A stretch of DNA of 64,000 bases from Candidatus Melainabacteria bacterium (GCA_027451745.1 DAIDIP010000015.1:1-64000); one strand, 5' to 3'; shown: positions 22,824 through 36,800, counted from the first letter of the stretch. The notes: generated from the sequence alone by a model not told the origin. Translations and numbers: made by a program.

Positions 22824-22949
22824 ATGAATGAAATGAGACCATTATCATTCTATAGCACCGTAGCTGGTGGCATATATTTATGGGGCTGGATATATCTATT
22901 TCTTGTTTCAAAATTTAGACAGATTATTAGGAGACTTTTGCAATGCTGA
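22824..22949 (+). CDS. Possible 41-residue membrane peptide
   Basis: A short ORF starting ATG with AGGA just upstream. The predicted peptide has one hydrophobic, aromatic-rich segment (about residues 13-30: VAGGIYLWGWIYLFLV) and a basic C-terminus (KFRQIIRRLLQC). Its end overlaps the tail of the converging GGDEF gene by 23 bp. It resembles small membrane peptides, but there is no other support. Confidence 0.25.
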   Translation: MNEMRPLSFYSTVAGGIYLWGWIYLFLVSKFRQIIRRLLQC

Positions 22950-25900
22950 TTGTTTTATTGAGCAAGGCTAGGAAAGATCTTACTAATTGAGGATCATAAT
23001 CTTTGCCTGAATGTTCTTCAATTAATTTTATGGCTTCAGCTTCGCTTAGGATAGGGCGGTAAGGACGCTCGCTGGTCATAGCGACAAAGTCATCTACTAA
23101 AGAAATAATCCTGGATTCTAATGGAATCTCTTCACCTTTCAATCCATGTGGGTAGCCGGTGCCATCCCAATTTTCTTGATAGGACTCGATAATGGGTGCT
23201 AAATGAGAAACAAGTTTGGCGGTTTCTAATAAACGAGCTCCTGCAGAAGGATAGCTCTTAATTAATTCCATTTCTTGTGGAGTTAGCGGCCCTTTTTTGG
23301 CCAGAATTTCTTTTGGTAGAGTCAATTTGCCCAAATTGCTATATACAGCAGCTAAAGCAATCATCTCAGTTTTATCTTCAGACAAGTTTAAGCTGCGGGC
23401 CAATTGACGGGCATAATTATAAACTCTTTGTGTTCTAAGAGGCTCATGCATATCTAATTCTTCCAAAGCCTTAGTGATAAGCGAAAGCAGTCCTAATAGT
23501 CCTCTTTGAGCGATTAGAGATAAATCAAGTTTATTGCTTTGACCAACTGAAGGTTTGCCGGGCATAGCGATATTTATTGACTGCGTGGCTCGTACCGATT
23601 GAGGAAGAGGTGGACGAGAAGAAACATTTGGAGGAATGGGTGTTGTGGGAATTAGTGGCAATTCTTCGCCACTCAAACTTGGTATCAAGTCTTCTGATAC
23701 AGAACAAACTTGATTTCGACCTCTGCCTTTAGCTAAGAATAAAGCTCTGTCAGCCAGCTCGAATAATTTATTGCGATCCATAGCATCTTGCGGGAAAGTA
23801 GCTAGACCTAAGGAGGCTGTAATGGTGCCCACGCCTTCTACAGGAGTTTCACCAATAGCTGTACAAATTCTCTCTGCGACTGCTCGGGCTTGACGCAATT
23901 CGGTTTCAGGCAAAAGAACGACAAATTCTTCTCCACCAAAACGACCTACTGTATCGACATCGCGAACACTCTTTTTCATAATGTTAGCTATATGTTTAAT
24001 TGCTGTGTCACCACTTGTGTGGCCGTAAGTGTCATTTATTTTTTTCAAATAGTCTAAGTCGGCAATTATTAAAGAGAAGGGGTGACCAAAACGTTGATAA
24101 CGGTCAATTTCTTTGGTTAATTGATCTTGGAAATAACGGCGATTGAATAGGCCAGTCATAGGATCAGTTATGGCTTGACGCTCAACCTGTCCAAATAGTT
24201 CGGCGTGGGCTATAACAGCAGCAACTCGGTTTGCCAGGTCGTCCACCATATTCATGTCTGCCTTAGGCAAGGAATGGCTGTGCTTATGTAATAGACAAAG
24301 GGCAGCTTTAAATTCTCCGCCATAAAATAACGGAGCTAGTGTGGCAAAAGTGACACCTCTTAAGTGAGGGTCATTTTTTTCTTGAGCTAGTTTAGATAAA
24401 GTTTCTTCTTCAAGAAAAATGGTATTGCCTTGAATTAATTGCGGAAGATATGAATTGAATAATTGTTCCTCAAGATAATTTGCAGGCAATTTATCTGTAT
24501 TGTTATCTTGCTCATTTAGTTGGAGAAGCGGAGCAGCTTTATATTTTACGAAATGTTTTGCTTGGTGGTCGTAAAGTGAAACCAAACAACGACTTAAGTC
24601 GAAGTGTTCTTTTAATGAAGTAACCAAAGTGTTCATAATTTGATCTACTTCTTTTAAAGATTGACGGATTTCGCTTGAAACTTGATTTATTAAAGCAGCA
24701 CGAGCTTGTTCAGCTTTGATTTGTAAAACAGCAGATTCAGCGCGAATAACATTAGAAAGATGTCCGGCGATAGTTAACCCTAATTCTTTGTCTTGAGCCC
24801 TAAATGGTGTTTGTTTGCTTTGTCTTTGCCATAAGCCGATGACCCCTAATCTTTCTCCTTCTGAAATTAAAGGCAAAATTAGAGCGGTGTCGTGATTAAA
24901 ATACGCATCACTTTTACGACTTTCTTCCATATTAATAACTTTGCCGTGTCCAGACTTAAAGACTGAAACAAAAGGATTTTCGTTATCAGAAAGAGGGACA
25001 TTTAAAGTTTCACCATTACTGATTTGAGGGATGAGAGTATTTTCTTCATGGTTATGGAGATAGAGCTGGGCATGAACAAAGCCCATATGATCGGCAACAA
25101 GCAAAACCGATTTTACTAATGATTGATTGCTGCTTTTTTCGCGTGAATCGCGGAAAAAACTAGCGATATCGTTAATAAGTTTCATTTCTTTGGCGTCAAC
25201 TTCAATTTTGGTTTGGTCATATGATTGTTGAACGACAACAGAAAGCATTTCGGCTACGCTCTGGATCATAATTGCTTCTTCATTTCCCCAATCTTTGGGA
25301 GCGCTTGCTTGTTGCAGCTCTAAAAAGCCAAAGAAAACTCCGCGCGAGCGCAGCTGTACCATGAGCCTAGCTTTGACGCCACCTAGTTCAATCAATGATG
25401 AAAGAGTGGGCGATATTTTGTGTAGATTAACATCTGCAGTAGTATCATGAATGCTAATGACGCCTGTGCCAGATTCATCCGGGAATCGAGAAAGAAATTC
25501 AAGCACAACGGCAGTAGATTCGTCTTGGCGTAACTGATTGCTTATAAAGCAAAGATGTCCGTTAGAGGCGTATTCATGGGTGACGGCTAATTGATCACCC
25601 ACCACTTGCCAAATTAATCCACGGTCAGCACTAGTTGCCTGTGTCAGTTTTTCAATGGCGAATTGCAAAATGGCGTTTAAATTGTGTGAATGTCTTAGTC
25701 GACTAATAATTTCGGTAATGATTGACTGAGCGCTAATTCTTTGCTGGGGTGGCCCATGAATAATCGGTTTTTGGGTAGTAATTTCATCGTCTTGTCTGGG
25801 AGGAGCGCAAACACTATGTGATCCAGTGGTGATTAAAGTACGAGGTGGTTCAACTGGTCGTGAATTAGGGCTAAAATCCTCACTGGGTGGGCTAATTGCA

Positions 25901-26589
25901 TTGTGGCGAGCCGAAGCAACTTGTCTTATATTGGTTGGAATAGGGATATTTTGAGGGGCAATCTGTCCGGTTGAATGCAGATCGGTAAGTGTTTTTGCTT
26001 GCATAATTTCTGGCGGAATAACGAAGCTTTGCACTGTAGGAGATTTGACAATTGGCCATTTAGATTTTAGGCGCTGAGTTAAAGCGACCGAACTATCTCC
26101 ATGAGTAATGCCAAGGCGTGCATCTTCCAATCGGTTACATTCGATTGGATCGTCCAATTGAAATTTTGGTAGTAATTGAGCAAAAGATTGTTTAACCAAT
26201 TCAGTGTCCATCGAACCGGCACATTGATATCGATGTCCATCGCTAGGATCGGATATCGCTTGTCCATGAACCACCAAGCTTACTTTGCTGCTCTCAATAA
26301 GAATGCACCATTCGTCCGGTGTTTGCTGATTGCCATCTGAAAATACAGAAACACATTTGCATTGACTCATTAGTTGTTTAAGACGAGGACCTTCGGGCAG
26401 AAGCAAAGAAGCATTGTGTTTAGCCCAGTAGACGATAATGGCTGGCAATTTTTCGTCCAAACAGAGCTGTTCTACTGCTCTAATAAAAGTCAGAAAAGTA
26501 GTGGGCGGCAAAATACTTAGCGGCAGGGTGCCAAAGCCACCTTGCCGGACAAGCATCATTTGTAATTGTGTCAGGCCTACTTCGGCCAT
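22927..26589 (-). CDS. Multi-GAF diguanylate cyclase with a degenerate HD-GYP domain
   Basis: A 1220-residue cytoplasmic signalling protein. After an unassigned N-terminal region (1-280) there are three GAF-like sensor domains (about 290-450, 480-630 and 640-800), then a GGDEF domain with an intact GGEEF active site (about 884-888) and an RDVD inhibitory site five residues before it, so it should make cyclic di-GMP and be product-inhibited. The C-terminal 190 residues align with HD-GYP phosphodiesterases and keep the DGTGYP motif, but the metal ligands are replaced: the first His by Arg, HD by SN, HH by SY, and the later Asp by Val. It is therefore probably not a phosphodiesterase but a dead or binding-only domain. 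Transcribed alone. Confidence 0.93.
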   Translation of the reverse strand: MAEVGLTQLQMMLVRQGGFGTLPLSILPPTTFLTFIRAVEQLCLDEKLPAIIVYWAKHNASLLLPEGPRLKQLMSQCKCVSVFSDGNQQTPDEWCILIESSKVSLVVHGQAISDPSDGHRYQCAGSMDTELVKQSFAQLLPKFQLDDPIECNRLEDARLGITHGDSSVALTQRLKSKWPIVKSPTVQSFVIPPEIMQAKTLTDLHSTGQIAPQNIPIPTNIRQVASARHNAISPPSEDFSPNSRPVEPPRTLITTGSHSVCAPPRQDDEITTQKPIIHGPPQQRISAQSIITEIISRLRHSHNLNAILQFAIEKLTQATSADRGLIWQVVGDQLAVTHEYASNGHLCFISNQLRQDESTAVVLEFLSRFPDESGTGVISIHDTTADVNLHKISPTLSSLIELGGVKARLMVQLRSRGVFFGFLELQQASAPKDWGNEEAIMIQSVAEMLSVVVQQSYDQTKIEVDAKEMKLINDIASFFRDSREKSSNQSLVKSVLLVADHMGFVHAQLYLHNHEENTLIPQISNGETLNVPLSDNENPFVSVFKSGHGKVINMEESRKSDAYFNHDTALILPLISEGERLGVIGLWQRQSKQTPFRAQDKELGLTIAGHLSNVIRAESAVLQIKAEQARAALINQVSSEIRQSLKEVDQIMNTLVTSLKEHFDLSRCLVSLYDHQAKHFVKYKAAPLLQLNEQDNNTDKLPANYLEEQLFNSYLPQLIQGNTIFLEEETLSKLAQEKNDPHLRGVTFATLAPLFYGGEFKAALCLLHKHSHSLPKADMNMVDDLANRVAAVIAHAELFGQVERQAITDPMTGLFNRRYFQDQLTKEIDRYQRFGHPFSLIIADLDYLKKINDTYGHTSGDTAIKHIANIMKKSVRDVDTVGRFGGEEFVVLLPETELRQARAVAERICTAIGETPVEGVGTITASLGLATFPQDAMDRNKLFELADRALFLAKGRGRNQVCSVSEDLIPSLSGEELPLIPTTPIPPNVSSRPPLPQSVRATQSINIAMPGKPSVGQSNKLDLSLIAQRGLLGLLSLITKALEELDMHEPLRTQRVYNYARQLARSLNLSEDKTEMIALAAVYSNLGKLTLPKEILAKKGPLTPQEMELIKSYPSAGARLLETAKLVSHLAPIIESYQENWDGTGYPHGLKGEEIPLESRIISLVDDFVAMTSERPYRPILSEAEAIKLIEEHSGKDYDPQLVRSFLALLNKTISIAKVS

Positions 26590-29024: not shown

Positions 29025-29876
29025 TCAGCTTTTTGATAATTCTAGGCAATGCTTATATCCCTCTTTATAGCTTGGGAATCGGAGTTCGATATTTAATTCG
29101 TTAAGTATTTTATTTGCTTGGATGCGTCTATTGCTTGTTAGGCTACTGTGCACTGTATCTGGTGCGGCTTGGGGCGGTAAGGAAATATTCATTTTCTGGC
29201 AAAGCCATTCTACAACCTCTTTTTGAGGTGCTGGGCACAAGTCCCCCACTAAGCGAATAGATCCTGAAGGCAGAGGTTTAGTGAACAAGGTAAGGATAAT
29301 TCGTGCCAAATCTTCCAGATGAATTCGAGAAATGTAATTATCTGCTTTAATCGGTAGACGATAGCTGTCATTTTTTAAACGCAGATGTAGTCCAGAACTT
29401 GCACCATATAGCCCTGGAGTTCTAAGAATAATTGCTCCAATATTGAGCCAAGTATCTTCAGCTTCTAAGCGTAATTTACTGGACTCGCTTTTCCTGTCTA
29501 CAGGTGAGTTCTCATCGATAACCCCTGAGATACTGCCATAAACAGAAGTAGAGGATATATAAATAACAGTTTTACTGTTTTGGCAAAGTTTGGAAAAAAA
29601 CTTATCGCTAAATGGATCAGGAGGAAAAGAAACAAGAACGTTAGCGTTTGTCAATAATTCAGATAATTGATCTTTTGATTGGTCAAATAAATCAGAGCAA
29701 ATACAAATTGGTTCTATCAAAGCATTGGCTAGTATATATAGTTTCTGCTTGTTACGAGTCGTACCAAATAGTTTGTAAGATGAATTTATTTTTGCTACGT
29801 GTAATGCTGCTTGTCCTACACCTAATAATACTAGTTTTTGACTTTGCTCAGATGGCATTAATAATGATGGGTTCAT
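29025..29876 (-). CDS. NAD(P)-dependent epimerase/dehydratase-like SDR protein
   Basis: A 283-residue Rossmann-fold protein of the extended/atypical SDR group. The nucleotide-binding glycine motif is GVGQAA (residues 19-24). The SSTSVYGS segment near residue 110 and a following Arg-Thr-Pro-Gly-Leu-Tyr-Gly stretch are typical of YeeZ-like epimerase relatives. The catalytic Tyr-x3-Lys pair is not clear, as in many atypical members. Its ATG overlaps the stop of the upstream MshEN-like gene by 4 bp (ATGA), so the two are translationally coupled. Substrate unknown. Confidence 0.8.
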   Translation of the reverse strand: MNPSLLMPSEQSQKLVLLGVGQAALHVAKINSSYKLFGTTRNKQKLYILANALIEPICICSDLFDQSKDQLSELLTNANVLVSFPPDPFSDKFFSKLCQNSKTVIYISSTSVYGSISGVIDENSPVDRKSESSKLRLEAEDTWLNIGAIILRTPGLYGASSGLHLRLKNDSYRLPIKADNYISRIHLEDLARIILTLFTKPLPSGSIRLVGDLCPAPQKEVVEWLCQKMNISLPPQAAPDTVHSSLTSNRRIQANKILNELNIELRFPSYKEGYKHCLELSKS

Positions 29877-31468
29877 GAGTTGATTTGAAAATTCAATTCT
29901 TCAAGAGCGTCTGTGAAGCTTACGCGACTGCGTTCACAATAATTCAGAGTAATAATTGCTTGTTCTAATTTTATTCTCTCTTGAAATAACATCGCCTCGC
30001 ATTCAAGAGCAGACTGGTAAGTTTTATCGCTTATTTTACCTGCAGCAACTAAAATTTGATCCATATTTCCGCCGTGTTTTTTTTGTACACTGTAAGCTAT
30101 TTCTTTATCTTTTACCAAAAGCATTCCAGCCTTAATGAGTAAATCTATTGCTCTTTGTTCCTTCTCTGTTTCTGTCCTGGAAACTTTTCGTTTTTGTGAA
30201 TTTAATTCTTTGCTTATTGCCTGACAAGCTTCGTCTTTGCTCAAAGCGCCGGCGCGTACTATTTCTTGCATTTTTAAAATGCCTTCTAAAATAGATGAAT
30301 CTATAACTTCTGCCTTTACAAGGAGATCACCTAATAAAGGATAACTTTTTTTGGGAAGAGTTGCTTTATTACCGCCAGTAGGCGAGTTTTTCATGAGGTG
30401 GGAAATATCTAAATTACCTCCTTTGTAATGAATGCGATTAACTGTTTCTATAGCCTGACTTCTGCTAATTACATTGCCGACTACCATTTCTTGCAATTTA
30501 AGAGCAGCTTTAAGTGTGCTTTCTGGAATTAGTCCAGAATCAACAAGAAATTGGCCAAGCATGAAATTTGTTTGTTTGCGCAATAGTTCTACGTCAGGCG
30601 CAGGCATTCTTGAAGTTGAGGCATTGGGATCAGGCAAAGGTGTACCAGGTTGAAGAGGAACCGAATTTGCCACAGATTGCGGCATGGGAACCATTGGTGG
30701 GTATGGCAATGGATATGGATAGCCGGGATAATAATAGACACTAGGTGCGCCCGATGTTAAGGATGGAAAGCGTTCGCTATCATTGAGATTGGCAGGATAA
30801 TAGTTTTGCGATGGATTAATTGGCTGAGGACTGCTTTGATTTGCGACAGGATTTGGAACTGGAAAGGCTGCTTTGATGTCAGGTTCGGTTTTGTTAATAT
30901 TCTGGGTACTTGAAGAATCAGCAAATGCACTTTCGAATTCACGGTAAGAATGACTAAGCCATTCTTTGGAGTCTTTTGAAAAACCATCTGTTTCTTTTAC
31001 TGATTCAATGTTAGGGTGGTTCGTTTCTACATTGGCGTTATATGGAGGGGTGTAGGGTATTTCTATTTTTGGCGCAGGTTCTGAATAGTCGATTGTTTGG
31101 GATGAAGAGGATGAATTTTTAAGTCCTCCGGGTATGTCTTTGTGTATGGTCTCGACTACAGAAAGAGATACAACTTCTTTTAGTAAAGACATATCGTTAA
31201 AAGGGGCACTCCACATGGCATGAGACTTAAGCCCAGTGCCTTCATAGAAACTCCAAATAGGTTCTTCAGCGCCTAGCTCTATACGGACAGCCAGAGCAAA
31301 CGAAACGTTATCTGGTTCTATAGACCAAGGTAATTCTATTGTGCAGCCGCGTATTTTTTGCACCTGGGACAATAGACGTTTAAGATCATCTATACTAGGT
31401 GGAGATGATAATGGTTCTAGTTTGACGTATTTTTTTGGGCGAAACATGGGTGCCGATCCGCATGACAT
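29873..31468 (-). CDS. Paralogue A: N-terminal domain, Pro/Tyr-rich linker and MshEN-like helical repeats
   Basis: A 531-residue cytoplasmic protein (no signal peptide). Residues about 25-110 form a conserved N-terminal domain (CTIELPW ... WSFYEG ... MWSAPF). A long disordered linker follows, with a Pro/Tyr block at 245-265. Residues 295-531 hold helical repeats of the form LG-x-FLV-x-SGLI-x-E-x-L-x-AALKLQE, seen at 304-345, 378-420 and, more weakly, 441-490, and resembling MshEN/T2SSE_N domains that in other proteins bind c-di-GMP. The last 45 residues (LEQAIITLNY, SRVSF) match paralogue B at 33821-35233. Start ATG 31468 or 31447. Function unknown; 4-bp overlap with the SDR gene. Confidence 0.78.
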   Translation of the reverse strand: MSCGSAPMFRPKKYVKLEPLSSPPSIDDLKRLLSQVQKIRGCTIELPWSIEPDNVSFALAVRIELGAEEPIWSFYEGTGLKSHAMWSAPFNDMSLLKEVVSLSVVETIHKDIPGGLKNSSSSSQTIDYSEPAPKIEIPYTPPYNANVETNHPNIESVKETDGFSKDSKEWLSHSYREFESAFADSSSTQNINKTEPDIKAAFPVPNPVANQSSPQPINPSQNYYPANLNDSERFPSLTSGAPSVYYYPGYPYPLPYPPMVPMPQSVANSVPLQPGTPLPDPNASTSRMPAPDVELLRKQTNFMLGQFLVDSGLIPESTLKAALKLQEMVVGNVISRSQAIETVNRIHYKGGNLDISHLMKNSPTGGNKATLPKKSYPLLGDLLVKAEVIDSSILEGILKMQEIVRAGALSKDEACQAISKELNSQKRKVSRTETEKEQRAIDLLIKAGMLLVKDKEIAYSVQKKHGGNMDQILVAAGKISDKTYQSALECEAMLFQERIKLEQAIITLNYCERSRVSFTDALEELNFQINS

Positions 31469-31563
31469 CTAGTTGATCTAGTATAAGTCCATAAAGTTAC
31501 TATAACCAAGTATTATGGGAAGCTTTGTTTAAAATTTAAAGATATATTCTCAATAGAGGTTAA

Positions 31564-32397
31564 ATGCTAACTGATAAGAATATTACTGTTTTAGGGGTGG
31601 GGACACTTGGCTCGGCGCTTATACGTGGAATGGTGAAGTCAAACAGTATCAAAGCTTCGCAAATCCATGGTACTGTGCGGACAATTGAGGCTATTAAAGC
31701 GACAGAAGAAAACTTAGCCCAAGAACAATGCTTCGATATTAAGATTTCAACTGACAATGCTAAGGCGGTTAAATTAGCAAACATTGTTATTCTGGCAGTA
31801 AAGCCACAGAATATGGCATCTTTGCTTGAAAGTATTTGTCCGCTTTTAAATAAAAATCAATTGGTTATTTCTGTAGCAGCGTCTGTACCTCTTAGCTATA
31901 TAGAAGAAAGACTTGGTCCTGAAACCCCGGTTATAAGAGCCATGCCCAATACTTGCGTCTTGGCAGGGGCGGGAATGACTGGTTTAGTGGGTGGAAAATT
32001 TGCCCAAGAAGAGCATAAAAAATTAGCCAAAACAATATTCAAAAGTGTTGGTGAAGTAGAATTTTTAGACGAAAAACTCTTCAATGCTTTAACTGCTCTT
32101 TCCGCTAGCGGTCCTGCTTACTTGTATGTGATTATTGAATCTTTAGCAGAAGCTGGTGTGAAACTTGGCATGCGTCGAGAAACTGCTACATTTCTGGCCG
32201 CTCAGACTATGCTTGGCACGGCAAAAATGATTCTGGAAACAGGCGCTCACCCGGCATTGCTTAAAGACGATGTAACAACCCCAGCAGGCTGTACTATAGA
32301 CGGACTAATGGAACTAGAAGAAGGAAAGTTGCGAGTTACACTAATCAAAGCGGTTGTAAAAGCGGCTGAGCGCGCCAAAGAACTTCTAAATAATTAA
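31564..32397 (+). CDS. proC: Pyrroline-5-carboxylate reductase
   Basis: Catalyses the last step of proline synthesis, reduction of pyrroline-5-carboxylate with NAD(P)H. A 277-residue protein of standard length. The N-terminal Rossmann motif is GVGTLGSA (11-18), followed by AVKPQN, then VIRAMPNTC near residue 120 and the C-terminal dimerisation signature SGPAYLYVIIESLAEAGVK and DDVTTPAGCTIDGL. It is divergent from paralogue A and 15 nt upstream of hmgA on the same strand, so proC and hmgA may be cotranscribed. Confidence 0.96.
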   Translation: MLTDKNITVLGVGTLGSALIRGMVKSNSIKASQIHGTVRTIEAIKATEENLAQEQCFDIKISTDNAKAVKLANIVILAVKPQNMASLLESICPLLNKNQLVISVAASVPLSYIEERLGPETPVIRAMPNTCVLAGAGMTGLVGGKFAQEEHKKLAKTIFKSVGEVEFLDEKLFNALTALSASGPAYLYVIIESLAEAGVKLGMRRETATFLAAQTMLGTAKMILETGAHPALLKDDVTTPAGCTIDGLMELEEGKLRVTLIKAVVKAAERAKELLNN

Positions 32398-32412
32398 TAA
32401 GCGCAGGAGAAG

Positions 32413-33720
32413 ATGAGAATAGGAGACAATAAATCTATATCGAGTTATATGAGTGGTTTTGGTAATTATTTTAGTTCGGAAGCCGAAAAAAATACTTTGC
32501 CTAAAGACCAAAATACTCCGCAGAAAGTTTCAGGTGGACTGTTTACTGAGCAATTAAATGGCGCAGCTTTTACTAGTCCTAGAGTAGATAATAGACATAC
32601 TTGGTTGTATAAAATAAGACCGTCAGCTGGAAATTATTCGTTCAAAGGTGTGCAACATGTAGGCTTAAAAGGCCGGCCTTTTATTGTCAATGCTTCGCCA
32701 AACGCTTTTCGTTGGTTGCCTTTTGATATACCAAAAGCAAAAACAGATTTTGTTGATGGGCTTATCACAGTGGCTGGTAATGGAGATTTGAATAGTTTGC
32801 GAGGTTCGGCTGTTCACATTTATAGAGCTAATGCTTCAATGGAAAATAGAGTTTTTTGTGACAATGATGCTGAGCTTCTATTTGTTCCTGAGCTTGGAGC
32901 TTTTAAGATTTTTACCGAGTTGGGCGAAATAGAACTGAAACCAAAAGAAATATGTCTTATACCAGCAGGGATTAAATTTAGAATCGAGTTGATAGATACA
33001 GAAATTCGTGGCTATCTTTTGGAAAACTACGGACCTTATTTGCGTTTACCAGAACTAGGTCCAATCGGTGCAAATGGTTTGGCGGCAATTCGCCATTTTT
33101 TGTGTCCTATGGCAAAGTATGAAAATAAACAAATTGAAACAGAGCTAGTAGTGAAATTTCAAGATAAACTTTGGCATACAGTACTTCCACATTCTCCTTT
33201 GGATGTGGTGTCTTGGCACGGTAACTATGTTCCCTATAAATATGACTTGTCTCTTTTTCAAGTTGTAAATTCGGTTAGTTTTGATCATCAAGATCCCTCT
33301 ATTTTTACTGTTCTTACTTCACCATCTGAATTTATTGGCTTACCCAATGTTGACTTTGTCATTTTTCCACCTCGTTGGTCTGTCGCAGAAAAAACTTTTA
33401 GACCACCTTATTTTCATCGCAATTGTATGAACGAAATCATGGGCCTCGTTTATGGACAATATGAATCTCGGACAGAAGGATTTCTTCCTGGAGGGATATC
33501 CCTCCATAATCGATTTATTGCCCATGGACCTGATTTAGAGACATACGAAAAAGCAATTAGTCAGAATTTAGTACCGACAAAGATGGACGATACTTTAGCT
33601 ATAATGTTTGAAAGCTCGCTGGTTTATCAACCCACCAAAGAAATGCTTGAGGTTAGTAATTTGGATAAAACATATTTGTCTATATGGCAAGGATTTAAAG
33701 CAGAATTTAAGGATGAATAG
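32413..33720 (+). CDS. hmgA: Homogentisate 1,2-dioxygenase
   Basis: Opens the aromatic ring of homogentisate to maleylacetoacetate in tyrosine and phenylalanine breakdown, using Fe(II) and O2. The 435-residue protein has the standard length and the N-terminal signature YMSGFGNYFSSE ... GLFTEQLNG. The iron ligands sit at His335, Glu341 (HRNCMNE) and His371 (HGPD), the same numbers as in the human enzyme. GCAGGAGAAG precedes the ATG. No fumarylacetoacetase, maleylacetoacetate isomerase or HPPD gene is in the window, so the rest of the pathway is elsewhere. proC lies 15 nt upstream. Confidence 0.96.
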   Translation: MRIGDNKSISSYMSGFGNYFSSEAEKNTLPKDQNTPQKVSGGLFTEQLNGAAFTSPRVDNRHTWLYKIRPSAGNYSFKGVQHVGLKGRPFIVNASPNAFRWLPFDIPKAKTDFVDGLITVAGNGDLNSLRGSAVHIYRANASMENRVFCDNDAELLFVPELGAFKIFTELGEIELKPKEICLIPAGIKFRIELIDTEIRGYLLENYGPYLRLPELGPIGANGLAAIRHFLCPMAKYENKQIETELVVKFQDKLWHTVLPHSPLDVVSWHGNYVPYKYDLSLFQVVNSVSFDHQDPSIFTVLTSPSEFIGLPNVDFVIFPPRWSVAEKTFRPPYFHRNCMNEIMGLVYGQYESRTEGFLPGGISLHNRFIAHGPDLETYEKAISQNLVPTKMDDTLAIMFESSLVYQPTKEMLEVSNLDKTYLSIWQGFKAEFKDE

Positions 33721-33820
33721 TTGTCGTTATAGTTTGCTAAATGCTGTCCTGGGTAAGTGATAAAAAGGCGGGGTCTGGTTATATGTTAAAAATGGGAAAT
33801 TAGTACCTTGACGGCTTTGT

Positions 33821-35233
33821 ATGCTTAGAAAATCCCAAGACGAACCGAAACAACCTAGTACCAATAGAAACAAATTGCCGCAGGAGCAGGGCATTCGAAC
33901 CTTGGCGGGCATTAAAGACTTGCTGGCTATAGCTAAAGAATCTCGCGGTATGCAGGTTGAATTAGAGTGGGCCACCGACACCCCAGGACAAATCTTTGTT
34001 CTAGATGTGCAATGGGATGCAAATATGGAGGATCCCTTCTGGGCTTTATATGAGCAAAATCCAGAAAAATCAAGGGTGGTTTGGAGTCAAACCTTTAAAG
34101 CTAACGATATAGAAATGTTTTATGACATACTCGTTATGTCTTGTGGGGCTGTAAACCCGAGCAAAAAATTATCAGATATTTTAAAGGCGCAACCGCAAAA
34201 AATAGACTGGTCAAAGACAGTCGAAACTAAGCCAGAATCAAGTCCTGCAGAAACTGCAAATAAACTAGCGCCGGCTCAAGCAGATAATTCAACTAAAGCT
34301 CCAGAAGCGGGGACACCACCTAATCCTGTTGTTGCTCCGACTGTGGGGGCAGAGAATCCTAATCCTAACCCCGGATTTGCTACACCGTATGGTTTTCCAC
34401 TGGGTGTTGGAGTGCCTATGAATCCAGCAATGTATCCAATGCCGGCTCAAGCTATGCTGGTACCAATGCAATATCCCCCAATGCCTAATGCTGGTTGGCC
34501 TTATCCACCAGGTACTGTTGGCAACAATACATATGGACAACCAAGCATAGATCCAAGTGTTCAGCCATCAGTGGGCGGAGTGTTGTCTTCGCTGCCAATT
34601 GATGCGAATTTGCTTGCTAAGCAAAACGATATAGCACTTGTGGATTTATTAGTTAAAGCAGAATTACTAACCGAAGCGGTTTTAGATGCCGCTTTAAAAA
34701 TTCAAGATTTGATCCAGGCAAATAAAATAGATATTGAAAAAGGAAGCGAAGTTTTAAAACATCATCACAGTAAAGGTAGAGCAATAGAAAACTATCTCAA
34801 TGTCTCTAATTCTTTATCCAGCTCTGTACAGAATTTAACGCCATCAGATAAGTCTGTAAAAACTTCCAATAAGGAGAGTCCTAAAGACGATATACCTAAA
34901 GACGATATAAAGGTGAAGCAGAATTCTAAACAGACTATGGAAGCCTTTGAGCTTTTGAAAAAAGCAGGTTTGCTCAGTGAGGACGATATTAAAACCGCTC
35001 AAGGTGTTGTTCGTAAGCACGGAGGGGACATTGCTTCTGTATTACAAGCAGCACAAAAAATAGATCAAAATACTCTTGAAGCAGCAAAAATTTGTCAAAG
35101 CTTAGAGAAAGAGGGGGCAATGAAATTAGAACAATGTGTTATTGTTCTAAATTATTGTATTCGCAGTCGGGTCACATTTGACGAGGCAATCAGCGAATTG
35201 AATTGGCCAAATCCTCGCCAAATAAAAAAATAG
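33821..35233 (+). CDS. Paralogue B: N-terminal domain, Pro/Tyr-rich linker and MshEN-like helical repeats
   Basis: A 470-residue relative of the minus-strand protein at 29873-31468. The N-terminal domain (about 25-110; MQVELEW ... FWALYEQ ... VVWSQTF) matches the same region of paralogue A. It is followed by a Pro-rich linker with MYPMPAQ and PMQYPPMP (200-230). Two repeats can be placed: LVDLLVKAELLTEAVLDAALK (273 onward, split here at LLTE) and AFELLKKAGLLSEDDI (375-390), then the shared C-terminal block with LEQCVIVLNY (436-445) and SRVTFDEA. It has one repeat fewer than A. Its stop lies in a terminator shared with the converging TPR gene. No signal peptide or membrane segment. Function unknown. 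Confidence 0.78.
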   Translation: MLRKSQDEPKQPSTNRNKLPQEQGIRTLAGIKDLLAIAKESRGMQVELEWATDTPGQIFVLDVQWDANMEDPFWALYEQNPEKSRVVWSQTFKANDIEMFYDILVMSCGAVNPSKKLSDILKAQPQKIDWSKTVETKPESSPAETANKLAPAQADNSTKAPEAGTPPNPVVAPTVGAENPNPNPGFATPYGFPLGVGVPMNPAMYPMPAQAMLVPMQYPPMPNAGWPYPPGTVGNNTYGQPSIDPSVQPSVGGVLSSLPIDANLLAKQNDIALVDLLVKAELLTEAVLDAALKIQDLIQANKIDIEKGSEVLKHHHSKGRAIENYLNVSNSLSSSVQNLTPSDKSVKTSNKESPKDDIPKDDIKVKQNSKQTMEAFELLKKAGLLSEDDIKTAQGVVRKHGGDIASVLQAAQKIDQNTLEAAKICQSLEKEGAMKLEQCVIVLNYCIRSRVTFDEAISELNWPNPRQIKK

Positions 35234-35252
35234 AGATTTAGCCTCTATTTTT
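35226..35252. terminator. Bidirectional terminator containing both stop codons
   Basis: AAAAATAGAG (35226-35235) pairs with CTCTATTTTT (35243-35252) around a seven-base loop. It has A/T tracts on each side, so it works in both directions. The stop codon of paralogue B (35231-35233) lies in the left arm, and the stop of the converging TPR gene (35251-35253) overlaps the end of the right arm. Confidence 0.75.
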
Positions 35253-35757
35253 AGTCGTCATTTTGTTCTTTGGTTTGCAATTTGGCTTTGTATTGATCTA
35301 AAAGTTTTTGTTGAGCTTGATACTGCTGAGCATTTTGTAATTGGGTCTGATATTTGCCACCTAAATTACAGGCTTTACTATATGCTGCTACCGCTTCTTC
35401 ATAGTTTTTGGAACACATAAGAGCATAACCCAGTCCAGCCTGATATTCAGCTACATTAGGTTTTAGTTTTGCTGCTGCTTTATATTGTACTGCTGCTAAG
35501 TCAGGTTTGTCATTGTGAGCAAGCAGGCTGGCAAACTCGAAATGGATAGCAGCATCTCCTGGTGTAAGTTTAAGTAATTCTGTGTACTGGGCTGTTGCTT
35601 CAGGAATTTTTCTTTGAGAGACATATATCTTAGCTAGACATGTGCGACAGAGTACTTTTTTGGCTAAAGCTTCAGCATCCACAGCTAGAGATTCTTTCTG
35701 CCAGATAAAACAGGCTATTGTGCTTATTAGCAAATATACGAAAAATTTTGATTGCAA
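35251..35757 (-). CDS. Secreted TPR protein
   Basis: A 168-residue protein with an N-terminal signal peptide (hydrophobic 5-19, cleavage after about residue 25, LAV/D) followed by about three tetratricopeptide repeats (ATAQYTELLKLTPGDAAIHFE, DLAAVQYKAAAKLKPNVAEY and NYEEAVAAYSKA patterns) and a Gln/Lys-rich C-terminal helix. TPRs bind other proteins, here in the periplasm; the partner is unknown. It follows another secreted TPR gene by 26 nt on the same strand, suggesting an operon. Confidence 0.8.
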   Translation of the reverse strand: MQSKFFVYLLISTIACFIWQKESLAVDAEALAKKVLCRTCLAKIYVSQRKIPEATAQYTELLKLTPGDAAIHFEFASLLAHNDKPDLAAVQYKAAAKLKPNVAEYQAGLGYALMCSKNYEEAVAAYSKACNLGGKYQTQLQNAQQYQAQQKLLDQYKAKLQTKEQNDD

Positions 35758-35783: not shown

Positions 35784-36800
35784 TTAGCGATTAGCTGAAT
35801 TTTCGAGCAAGGCGTATATTTGATTTAAATTGTCTTCGTTGGCTGGTTGTCTGCCATAAGATCCTTCATAAGTATCAAAGGCACCATCTCGAGGTATGGC
35901 ATTGCGAATAAATATAATCCATTCACTTCCCTTTTCGGGCATCTTATCTTTGCCAAACTTCCAACCCGGCGGAGCAACATTATTAGTACGGTCATAAAAT
36001 TCATAGCGAATCGGTAGCTCTTTATTTAGCGGTGGTCCTTTAAGTATTTTTGTAATATGGTAATTAGCTATAGGTGGATGAAAAAACTGTATATCAGGGT
36101 TGCGCTGGTAATCAATATACTCCGCTATGACAATACATTCTGAGTGTGAGGCATTCAGAAATGACAATTTGAATTGAGTAGAATCTTTAGCCAAAAAGGT
36201 TTTGTGTTCAGGAACAGGACCGGTGCTAGCAAGATTTCCCGAAGGTCCTACTACTGATGTATCGGGAGTACTGGACGCTGCGCCGCTAGGTCCGCTTGGA
36301 GTGGTTGTTTCTTCTTCTGGAGGGGCTTCAGGAATGGGCGGTGGAACCACCAGAGATATTTTTTGGGTGGGCAAATCCGCGTCTTTTAAAGCCTGTTTGA
36401 GCACTGGTACAGCGTCATCATAATGTCCTAAATGATACAAAGCTTCTCCATATTGCGCCAATAGCGGTGGTTTTTTGCTTGGATCTATCTCAAAAATCTT
36501 TTCTAGAGCAAAGACTACTTGATCCCATTCACTAGTGTGGACGCATACGTCATAAAGACCATAGTAAAATTCTAATGTCTCAGGACTCATCCCTATGGCT
36601 ATACGATATTCTTCTTTTGCTTTATTATAATCGTGAGCGGCGAAAGCCTTAGCCGCGGCATTAGCGTGCCTGGTAATTAAAATTGAGCCTGTTGAGCCAG
36701 TATTGTCTCCCACAGCATAGGCTGGAAGGGAGAAGCATATGATGCTATTGAAGAAGAAAGTTGATATTAAATAGAGTTTGGCTGGACTGGTAGCATGCAT
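35784..36800 (-). CDS. Secreted TPR-containing protein
   Basis: A 338-residue protein with a signal peptide (hydrophobic stretch about 11-28, cleavage after AYA) and two to three TPR units at about 50-140 (YNKAKEEYRIAIG, WDQVVFALEKIFEIDPSKK, HYDDAVPVLKQAL). A Pro/Thr/Ser-rich linker (about 155-200) leads to a C-terminal domain of about 130 residues with FLNASHSECIVIAEYID and RYEFYDRTN. That domain is predicted to be beta-rich and is not recognised. It is probably periplasmic and cotranscribed with the smaller TPR protein downstream. Role unknown. Confidence 0.78.
   Translation of the reverse strand: MHATSPAKLYLISTFFFNSIICFSLPAYAVGDNTGSTGSILITRHANAAAKAFAAHDYNKAKEEYRIAIGMSPETLEFYYGLYDVCVHTSEWDQVVFALEKIFEIDPSKKPPLLAQYGEALYHLGHYDDAVPVLKQALKDADLPTQKISLVVPPPIPEAPPEEETTTPSGPSGAASSTPDTSVVGPSGNLASTGPVPEHKTFLAKDSTQFKLSFLNASHSECIVIAEYIDYQRNPDIQFFHPPIANYHITKILKGPPLNKELPIRYEFYDRTNNVAPPGWKFGKDKMPEKGSEWIIFIRNAIPRDGAFDTYEGSYGRQPANEDNLNQIYALLENSANR

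Follow-up and report, generated by a model that had tools for sequence, protein, structure and literature searches.

Effectors of bis-(3'-5')-cyclic dimeric guanosine monophosphate (c-di-GMP) are still being discovered. In the published MshEN site, the ligand is bound by two 24-residue motifs, RLGxx(LVI)(LVI)xxG(LVI)(LVI)xxxxLxxxLxxQ, separated by a 5-residue spacer; the Arg stacks on guanine, while the Gly amides and the Gln make the polar contacts (PMC5013675). A non-binding homologue of this module, the GSPII-A domain of Thermus thermophilus PilF, has kept the fold and lost the Gln positions and one Gly (PMC12002112). Here we describe two paralogous genes, A and B, encoding MshEN-related helical repeats behind an N-terminal domain (N-domain) and a Pro/Tyr-rich linker. 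They lie in a stretch of 64,000 nucleotides (the window; GCA_027451745.1, DAIDIP010000015.1:1-64000) deposited as Candidatus Melainabacteria bacterium. The genome belongs to Candidatus Obscuribacterales, an order of non-photosynthetic cyanobacteria that is widespread but has few cultured members. With moderate confidence, we interpret A and B as Obscuribacterales-specific soluble adaptors of the c-di-GMP network with partly decayed MshEN modules.

The relationship of the repeats to MshEN, proposed in a first-pass annotation of the window, is established by several routes, namely profile, profile-profile and fold comparison. NF053729, an NCBIfam model of a c-di-GMP motif related to MshE, matched A with 44.3 bits (E = 1.1e-11), above its cut-off of 38, and B with 18.5 bits, below it; across the family it matched 35 of the 35 repeat regions at E<=0.001. 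Alignment to canonical MshEN with hhalign gave P = 2e-6 for the first half-motif and P = 4.3e-6 for the C-terminal unit, and a PDB profile search matched PilF (E = 1.7e-4). The repeats were modelled with AlphaFold2 (AF2) as helices, at a predicted local distance difference test score (pLDDT) of 88. Foldseek aligned this model with the four-helix fold of MshE in complex with c-di-GMP (5HTL) at a probability of 0.92, with an rmsd of 2.1 A and 25% identity over 52 columns; the E-value was weak (2.3) because the query aligned only in part. The same model also matched GSPII-B of PilF. The Pfam scan of both proteins, ATPase families included, gave no match, and the Pfam MshEN model PF05157, which matches one other protein of the genome, misses A and B.

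The 24-5-24 spacing and helical fold of the MshEN/GSPII modules of Vibrio cholerae MshE and T. thermophilus PilF recur in the C-terminal unit of both A and B. In contrast to these proteins, A and B have no ATPase domain; the C-terminal Walker ATPase of the type IV pilus and type II secretion proteins MshE, GspE and PilB has no Pfam match in either. In the full unit they have also lost RLG and most Gln, and they carry an order-specific helical extension of ~36 residues behind it as well as additional single half-motifs upstream (two in A, one in B), each with an extension of its own. GSPII-A of PilF resembles them in retaining the fold after loss of the Gln positions and a Gly, but is part of a pilus ATPase, whereas A and B stand alone with a new N-domain. 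Tandem MshEN-extension arrays encoded by the same genome (e.g. the 436 aa protein at G000:C1:271534-272844) are built from the same ~98-residue unit and give clear NF053729 matches. Unlike A and B, these arrays consist of several full units and lack the N-domain and the Pro-rich linker; in many of their half-motif pairs, the first member retains Arg and the second Gln. Such arrays, with up to four units per protein, were also seen at C30:17608-19704, C30:4811-5902 and C12:34200-35420.

As had been annotated, A and B flank proC and hmgA in opposite orientation (Table 1). The two proteins are homologous (26% identity, E = 3e-25, BLASTP), and both belong to the A/B family as defined by matches to profile A3 (N-domain) and profile A4 (C-terminal unit with extension). 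They share the order of N-domain, Pro/Tyr-rich linker, helical repeats and C-terminus. This part of the earlier description stands, while the shared C-terminal motif is LEQ-x4-LNYC rather than LEQ-x5-LNYC, and the layouts differ: the single full unit is preceded by two half-repeats in A and by one in B. Gene order was compared in relatives, and orthologues of A and B were found across one order in a conserved arrangement. In most of the relatives compared from the same family, this arrangement consists of a short-chain dehydrogenase/reductase (SDR)-like gene and A on the minus strand, proC-hmgA-B and a cyclase gene on the plus strand, and tetratricopeptide repeat (TPR) genes on the minus strand. 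There, B lies directly 3' of hmgA and 5' of the cyclase; in many relatives A adjoins the SDR-like gene and is divergent from proC. The start of the SDR-like gene overlaps the 3' end of A by 4 bp, and the two genes are likely to form one operon. In total, 50 loci were found by an alignment query of genome contigs, in which incompleteness of metagenome-assembled genomes (MAGs) can hide genes; B as a single-sequence query of genome contigs retrieved nothing.

The order-wide orthologues, the conserved gene order and two supported lineages confirm that the A/B pair is not due to chance. One could still picture an accidental pair, produced by tandem or local duplication and left as two diverging, barely constrained copies. 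Evolution has indeed been fast: A and B share 44–46% identity with their counterparts in the sister species (L062), against about 69–77% for several neighbouring genes. However, A and B separated earlier than the order's two families did, and residues invariant across 12–15 orthologues, together with the conserved gene order, suggest selection, so that we regard an accidental pair as very improbable.

Ligand residues have been lost from these repeats. The C-terminal full unit of A and B retains the exact 24-5-24 spacing, with RLG gone from both halves and Gln mostly gone. Half-motif 1 of the window's A retains L-G and L-x3-L-x2-Q and has Met in place of Arg; among 12 A orthologues, G and Q of this half-motif are present in 12/12, Arg in 1/12 and Lys in 1/12. 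The two half-motifs of A start 75 residues apart in the window; in relatives this distance is 69–73 (about 71) residues, compared with 29 in MshEN. The strict pattern of an MshEN receptor (two motifs RLG...L...L..Q with a 5-residue gap) is absent: the 24-5-24 pair lacks RLG and most Gln, and the intact-looking half-motifs stand singly, about 71 residues apart. In B, the half-motif has Gln24 in 36 of the 36 copies and Arg in none of the 36; the window copy has lost G3 and G10 as well. Gly10 is lacking in all three copies without a neighbouring cyclase, a suggestive pattern, but also in two relatives with one, and we do not claim that decay of this half-motif is tied to cyclase loss.

The published relaxed half-motif rule ([RKPN]hGxxhhxx[GAS]hh...) was matched by neither protein of the window. 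With position 1 left free, A contained one half-motif (0.002 expected from shuffles) and B none, most A orthologues contained two at a spacing of 69–73 residues, and two A relatives matched the full rule at both half-motifs. Binding of c-di-GMP by the window pair, as raised by the first-pass annotation, now appears unlikely from sequence, because the ligand residues are lost and the published rule is unmatched: B offers no half-motif, A offers one only when the Arg position is ignored, and the full unit lacks RLG and most Gln. Some A relatives may bind c-di-GMP. A wider proposal would make A and B orthologues genuine c-di-GMP receptors, with a putative split MshEN pocket formed by the two half-motifs of A about 71 residues apart, or by two B chains. 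It draws on Gly3 and Gln24, present in 12/12 A orthologues in both half-motifs, on the near-constant spacing of those half-motifs, on the relatives matching fully at both, and on the invariant Gln24 of B. Yet the cation-pi Arg is absent from nearly all half-motifs, B has a single half-motif that goes unmatched in the window copy, and comparable losses in GSPII-A of PilF accompany absence of binding (PMC12002112). We therefore consider the receptor proposal rather unlikely, though worth keeping in view.

The N-domain is restricted to the order, within the scope of Cyanobacteriota: it occurs in 50 of the 53 order genomes, with up to 17 copies, and in none of the 385 other Cyanobacteriota sampled. 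No match to it was found in Pfam (56 members), in the PDB by profile and sequence search, in PHROGs, or by Foldseek with the predicted model at E<=0.001 (best TM about 0.4). The linker of A varies in length among orthologues and keeps its Pro-richness. In many genomes the N-domain also heads a second architecture, in which DUF4388 and a degenerate GGDEF-like domain follow. These Obscuribacterales proteins (G000:C6:32761-34656 at L118, also L221, L228 and L234) share the N-domain and linker layout of A and B, but a C-terminal DUF4388 (PF14332) and degenerate GGDEF replace the MshEN units.

Counted per genome, as the first-pass annotation had proposed, the C-terminal full unit (profile A4) is present in 52 of the 53 order genomes, with up to 44 matches. 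The extension is likewise order-restricted: its profile A8 matched 10 times in the genome of the window, and the 385 other Cyanobacteriota gave a single marginal match, which covered 18 positions. As far as searched, the family appears to be confined to one order. The Obscuribacterales locus is also present in three public MAG records (L128, L130, L171) whose titles name Proteobacteria and Actinobacteria; these titles are probably wrong. In a tree of the N-domain plus C-terminal unit, A and B fell on opposite sides of a branch with 98/96 support. Because both families of the order occur on each side, the tree indicates that A and B are ancient lineages and that their duplication predates the split of these two families.

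MshEN-motif matches number 11–92 per genome in Obscuribacterales versus 1–3 in other sampled families of the class. We nevertheless dropped the idea that this expansion is unique to the order, because several other families of the phylum reach at least about 16 NF053729 candidates per genome. The order-specific features are the extension and the N-domain, not the MshEN expansion as such. PilZ receptors are absent here, and the sampled members of the order have 0–2 in each genome. The earlier suggestion of an undescribed lineage-specific family, possibly with a signalling or scaffold function, is borne out as regards the order-limited distribution, the N-domain without Pfam match and the linkage to c-di-GMP enzymes; the signalling role itself we infer. 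Both an MshEN profile match and members elsewhere were found, whose joint absence would have spoken against such a family.

The position of the cyclase gene beside B is conserved. In 29 of the 31 syntenic loci of named records it lies on the same strand as B at <=2 kb, being the next gene in 21, and it often overlaps B or lies within 30 bp. The protein has the architecture REC-HPt-REC-REC-GGDEF (Pfam identified the three REC domains, the HPt and the GGDEF in the one copy that was scanned), and RWGGEEF is found in every full-length copy listed. The window contains a different cyclase, a GAF-GGDEF-HD-GYP protein whose HD-GYP domain was rightly annotated as dead, its metal residues having been lost (Table 1).

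Several points weigh against an adaptor role next to the B-linked cyclase. This cyclase is missing beside B in the window genus and in one further genome, and no orthologue was found elsewhere in the window's own genome; A and B persist there without it and therefore cannot depend on it alone. Operon adjacency by itself does not prove contact, and since the neighbourhood of proC and hmgA is constant too, part of the gene order may be inherited without function. Within the order's second family (L131, L135, L136; also L080), B lies 3' of a glycosyltransferase gene and a nucleotidyltransferase-phosphomannomutase fusion, which hints at polysaccharide control. Paralogous B copies (L137, L145, L147, L152, L153, L162) lie 47–48 bp past a gene of ~1060 aa, which may point elsewhere; the one copy of this gene that was scanned is SbcC/SMC-like (AAA_23, SbcC_Walker_B).

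Such observations could mean that the repeats are MshEN-derived yet independent of c-di-GMP, serving as scaffolds of, for example, envelope or polysaccharide assembly, with the cyclase as a passenger. The C-terminal unit is the best-conserved part and has lost its ligand residues, which fits this explanation, as do the window genus without cyclase and the glycan-synthesis genes 5' of B in the second family. The cyclase beside B in nearly all syntenic loci and the fusion of the N-domain to GGDEF-like proteins argue the other way, and on balance we think a c-di-GMP-independent scaffold unlikely.

As adaptors, the interpretation that we prefer, A and B would use the order-specific N-domain to dock to a partner or site, via the flexible Pro/Tyr-rich linker, and the C-terminal MshEN-derived helical units would make protein contacts. 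B would act beside the phosphorelay-controlled diguanylate cyclase, and we infer that it contacts this enzyme. In some relatives, the two spaced half-motifs of A may still sense c-di-GMP, while ligand binding has probably been lost in the window copies of A and B. A more speculative variant, for which we see only a slim chance, invokes split MshEN pockets: half-sites, either separated by about 71 residues within A or contributed by separate A and B chains, would be joined on c-di-GMP, yielding a clamp that would report on its own phosphorelay cyclase via a new order-specific output domain.

Coordinates of A, B, their parts and the other genes discussed are listed in Table 1. Two TPR proteins encoded at 35251-35757 and 35784-36800 (minus strand) stay beside the B-cyclase locus across the order and are often duplicated; the longer of the two (35784-36800) has a likely signal peptide.

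Table 1. Features of the A/B locus and its surroundings, in coordinates of the window (pTM, predicted template modelling score; ORF, open reading frame).
Feature	Coordinates	Strand	Residues	Basis and remarks
GAF-GGDEF-HD-GYP protein	22927-26589	-	1220 aa	GGEEF intact; HD reads SN, HHE reads SYQ
SDR/epimerase-like gene	29025-29876	-		ATG at 29876, A stop at 29873; SDR assigned by eye, with nothing in Pfam at E<=0.001
Paralogue A (P0001)	29873-31468	-	531 aa	ORF; N-domain and linker, then two extended half-MshEN motifs and a degenerate MshEN unit at the C-terminus
C-terminal extension of A	29888-29995	-	492-527	LEQ-x4-LNYC, ~36 residues, helical; extension profile A8
C-terminal degenerate MshEN pair of A	29996-30154	-	439-491	24-5-24 spacing; hhalign to canonical MshEN
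Half-MshEN motif 2 of A, LLGDLLVKAEVIDSSILEGILKMQ	30266-30337	-	378-401	G and Q each in 12/12 orthologues
Helical extension after half-motif 1 of A	30404-30490	-	327-355	AF2 helices; A-x-E and H conserved in alignment A2
Half-MshEN motif 1 of A, MLGQFLVDSGLIPESTLKAALKLQ	30491-30562	-	303-326	NF053729 positions 2-25
Pro/Tyr/Ser-rich low-complexity linker of A	30593-31135	-	112-292	sequence
N-domain of A	31136-31447	-	8-111	predicted beta-alpha-beta4-alpha; AF2 pLDDT 86.3, pTM 0.78
proC, pyrroline-5-carboxylate reductase	31564-32397	+		TIGR00112 266.6 bits, cut-off 196.75
hmgA, homogentisate 1,2-dioxygenase	32413-33720	+		TIGR01015 580.6 bits, cut-off 510.75
Paralogue B (P0002)	33821-35233	+	470 aa	ORF; start 100 bp past hmgA end
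N-domain of B	33863-34147	+		profile A3 E 1.8e-35
Half-MshEN motif of B, ALVDLLVKAELLTEAVLDAALKIQ, decayed in window	34634-34705	+	272-295	
C-terminal degenerate MshEN unit and extension of B	34940-35206	+	374-462	profile A4 E 1.4e-42

Members of Obscuribacterales have few or no PilZ receptors, yet their genomes hold 11–92 MshEN-motif matches each. The A/B family shows MshEN multiplied, split, and given a new extension and a new domain without counterpart in Pfam or the PDB. With its defined gene pair and cyclase, it provides a test case for MshEN modules without ligand residues.

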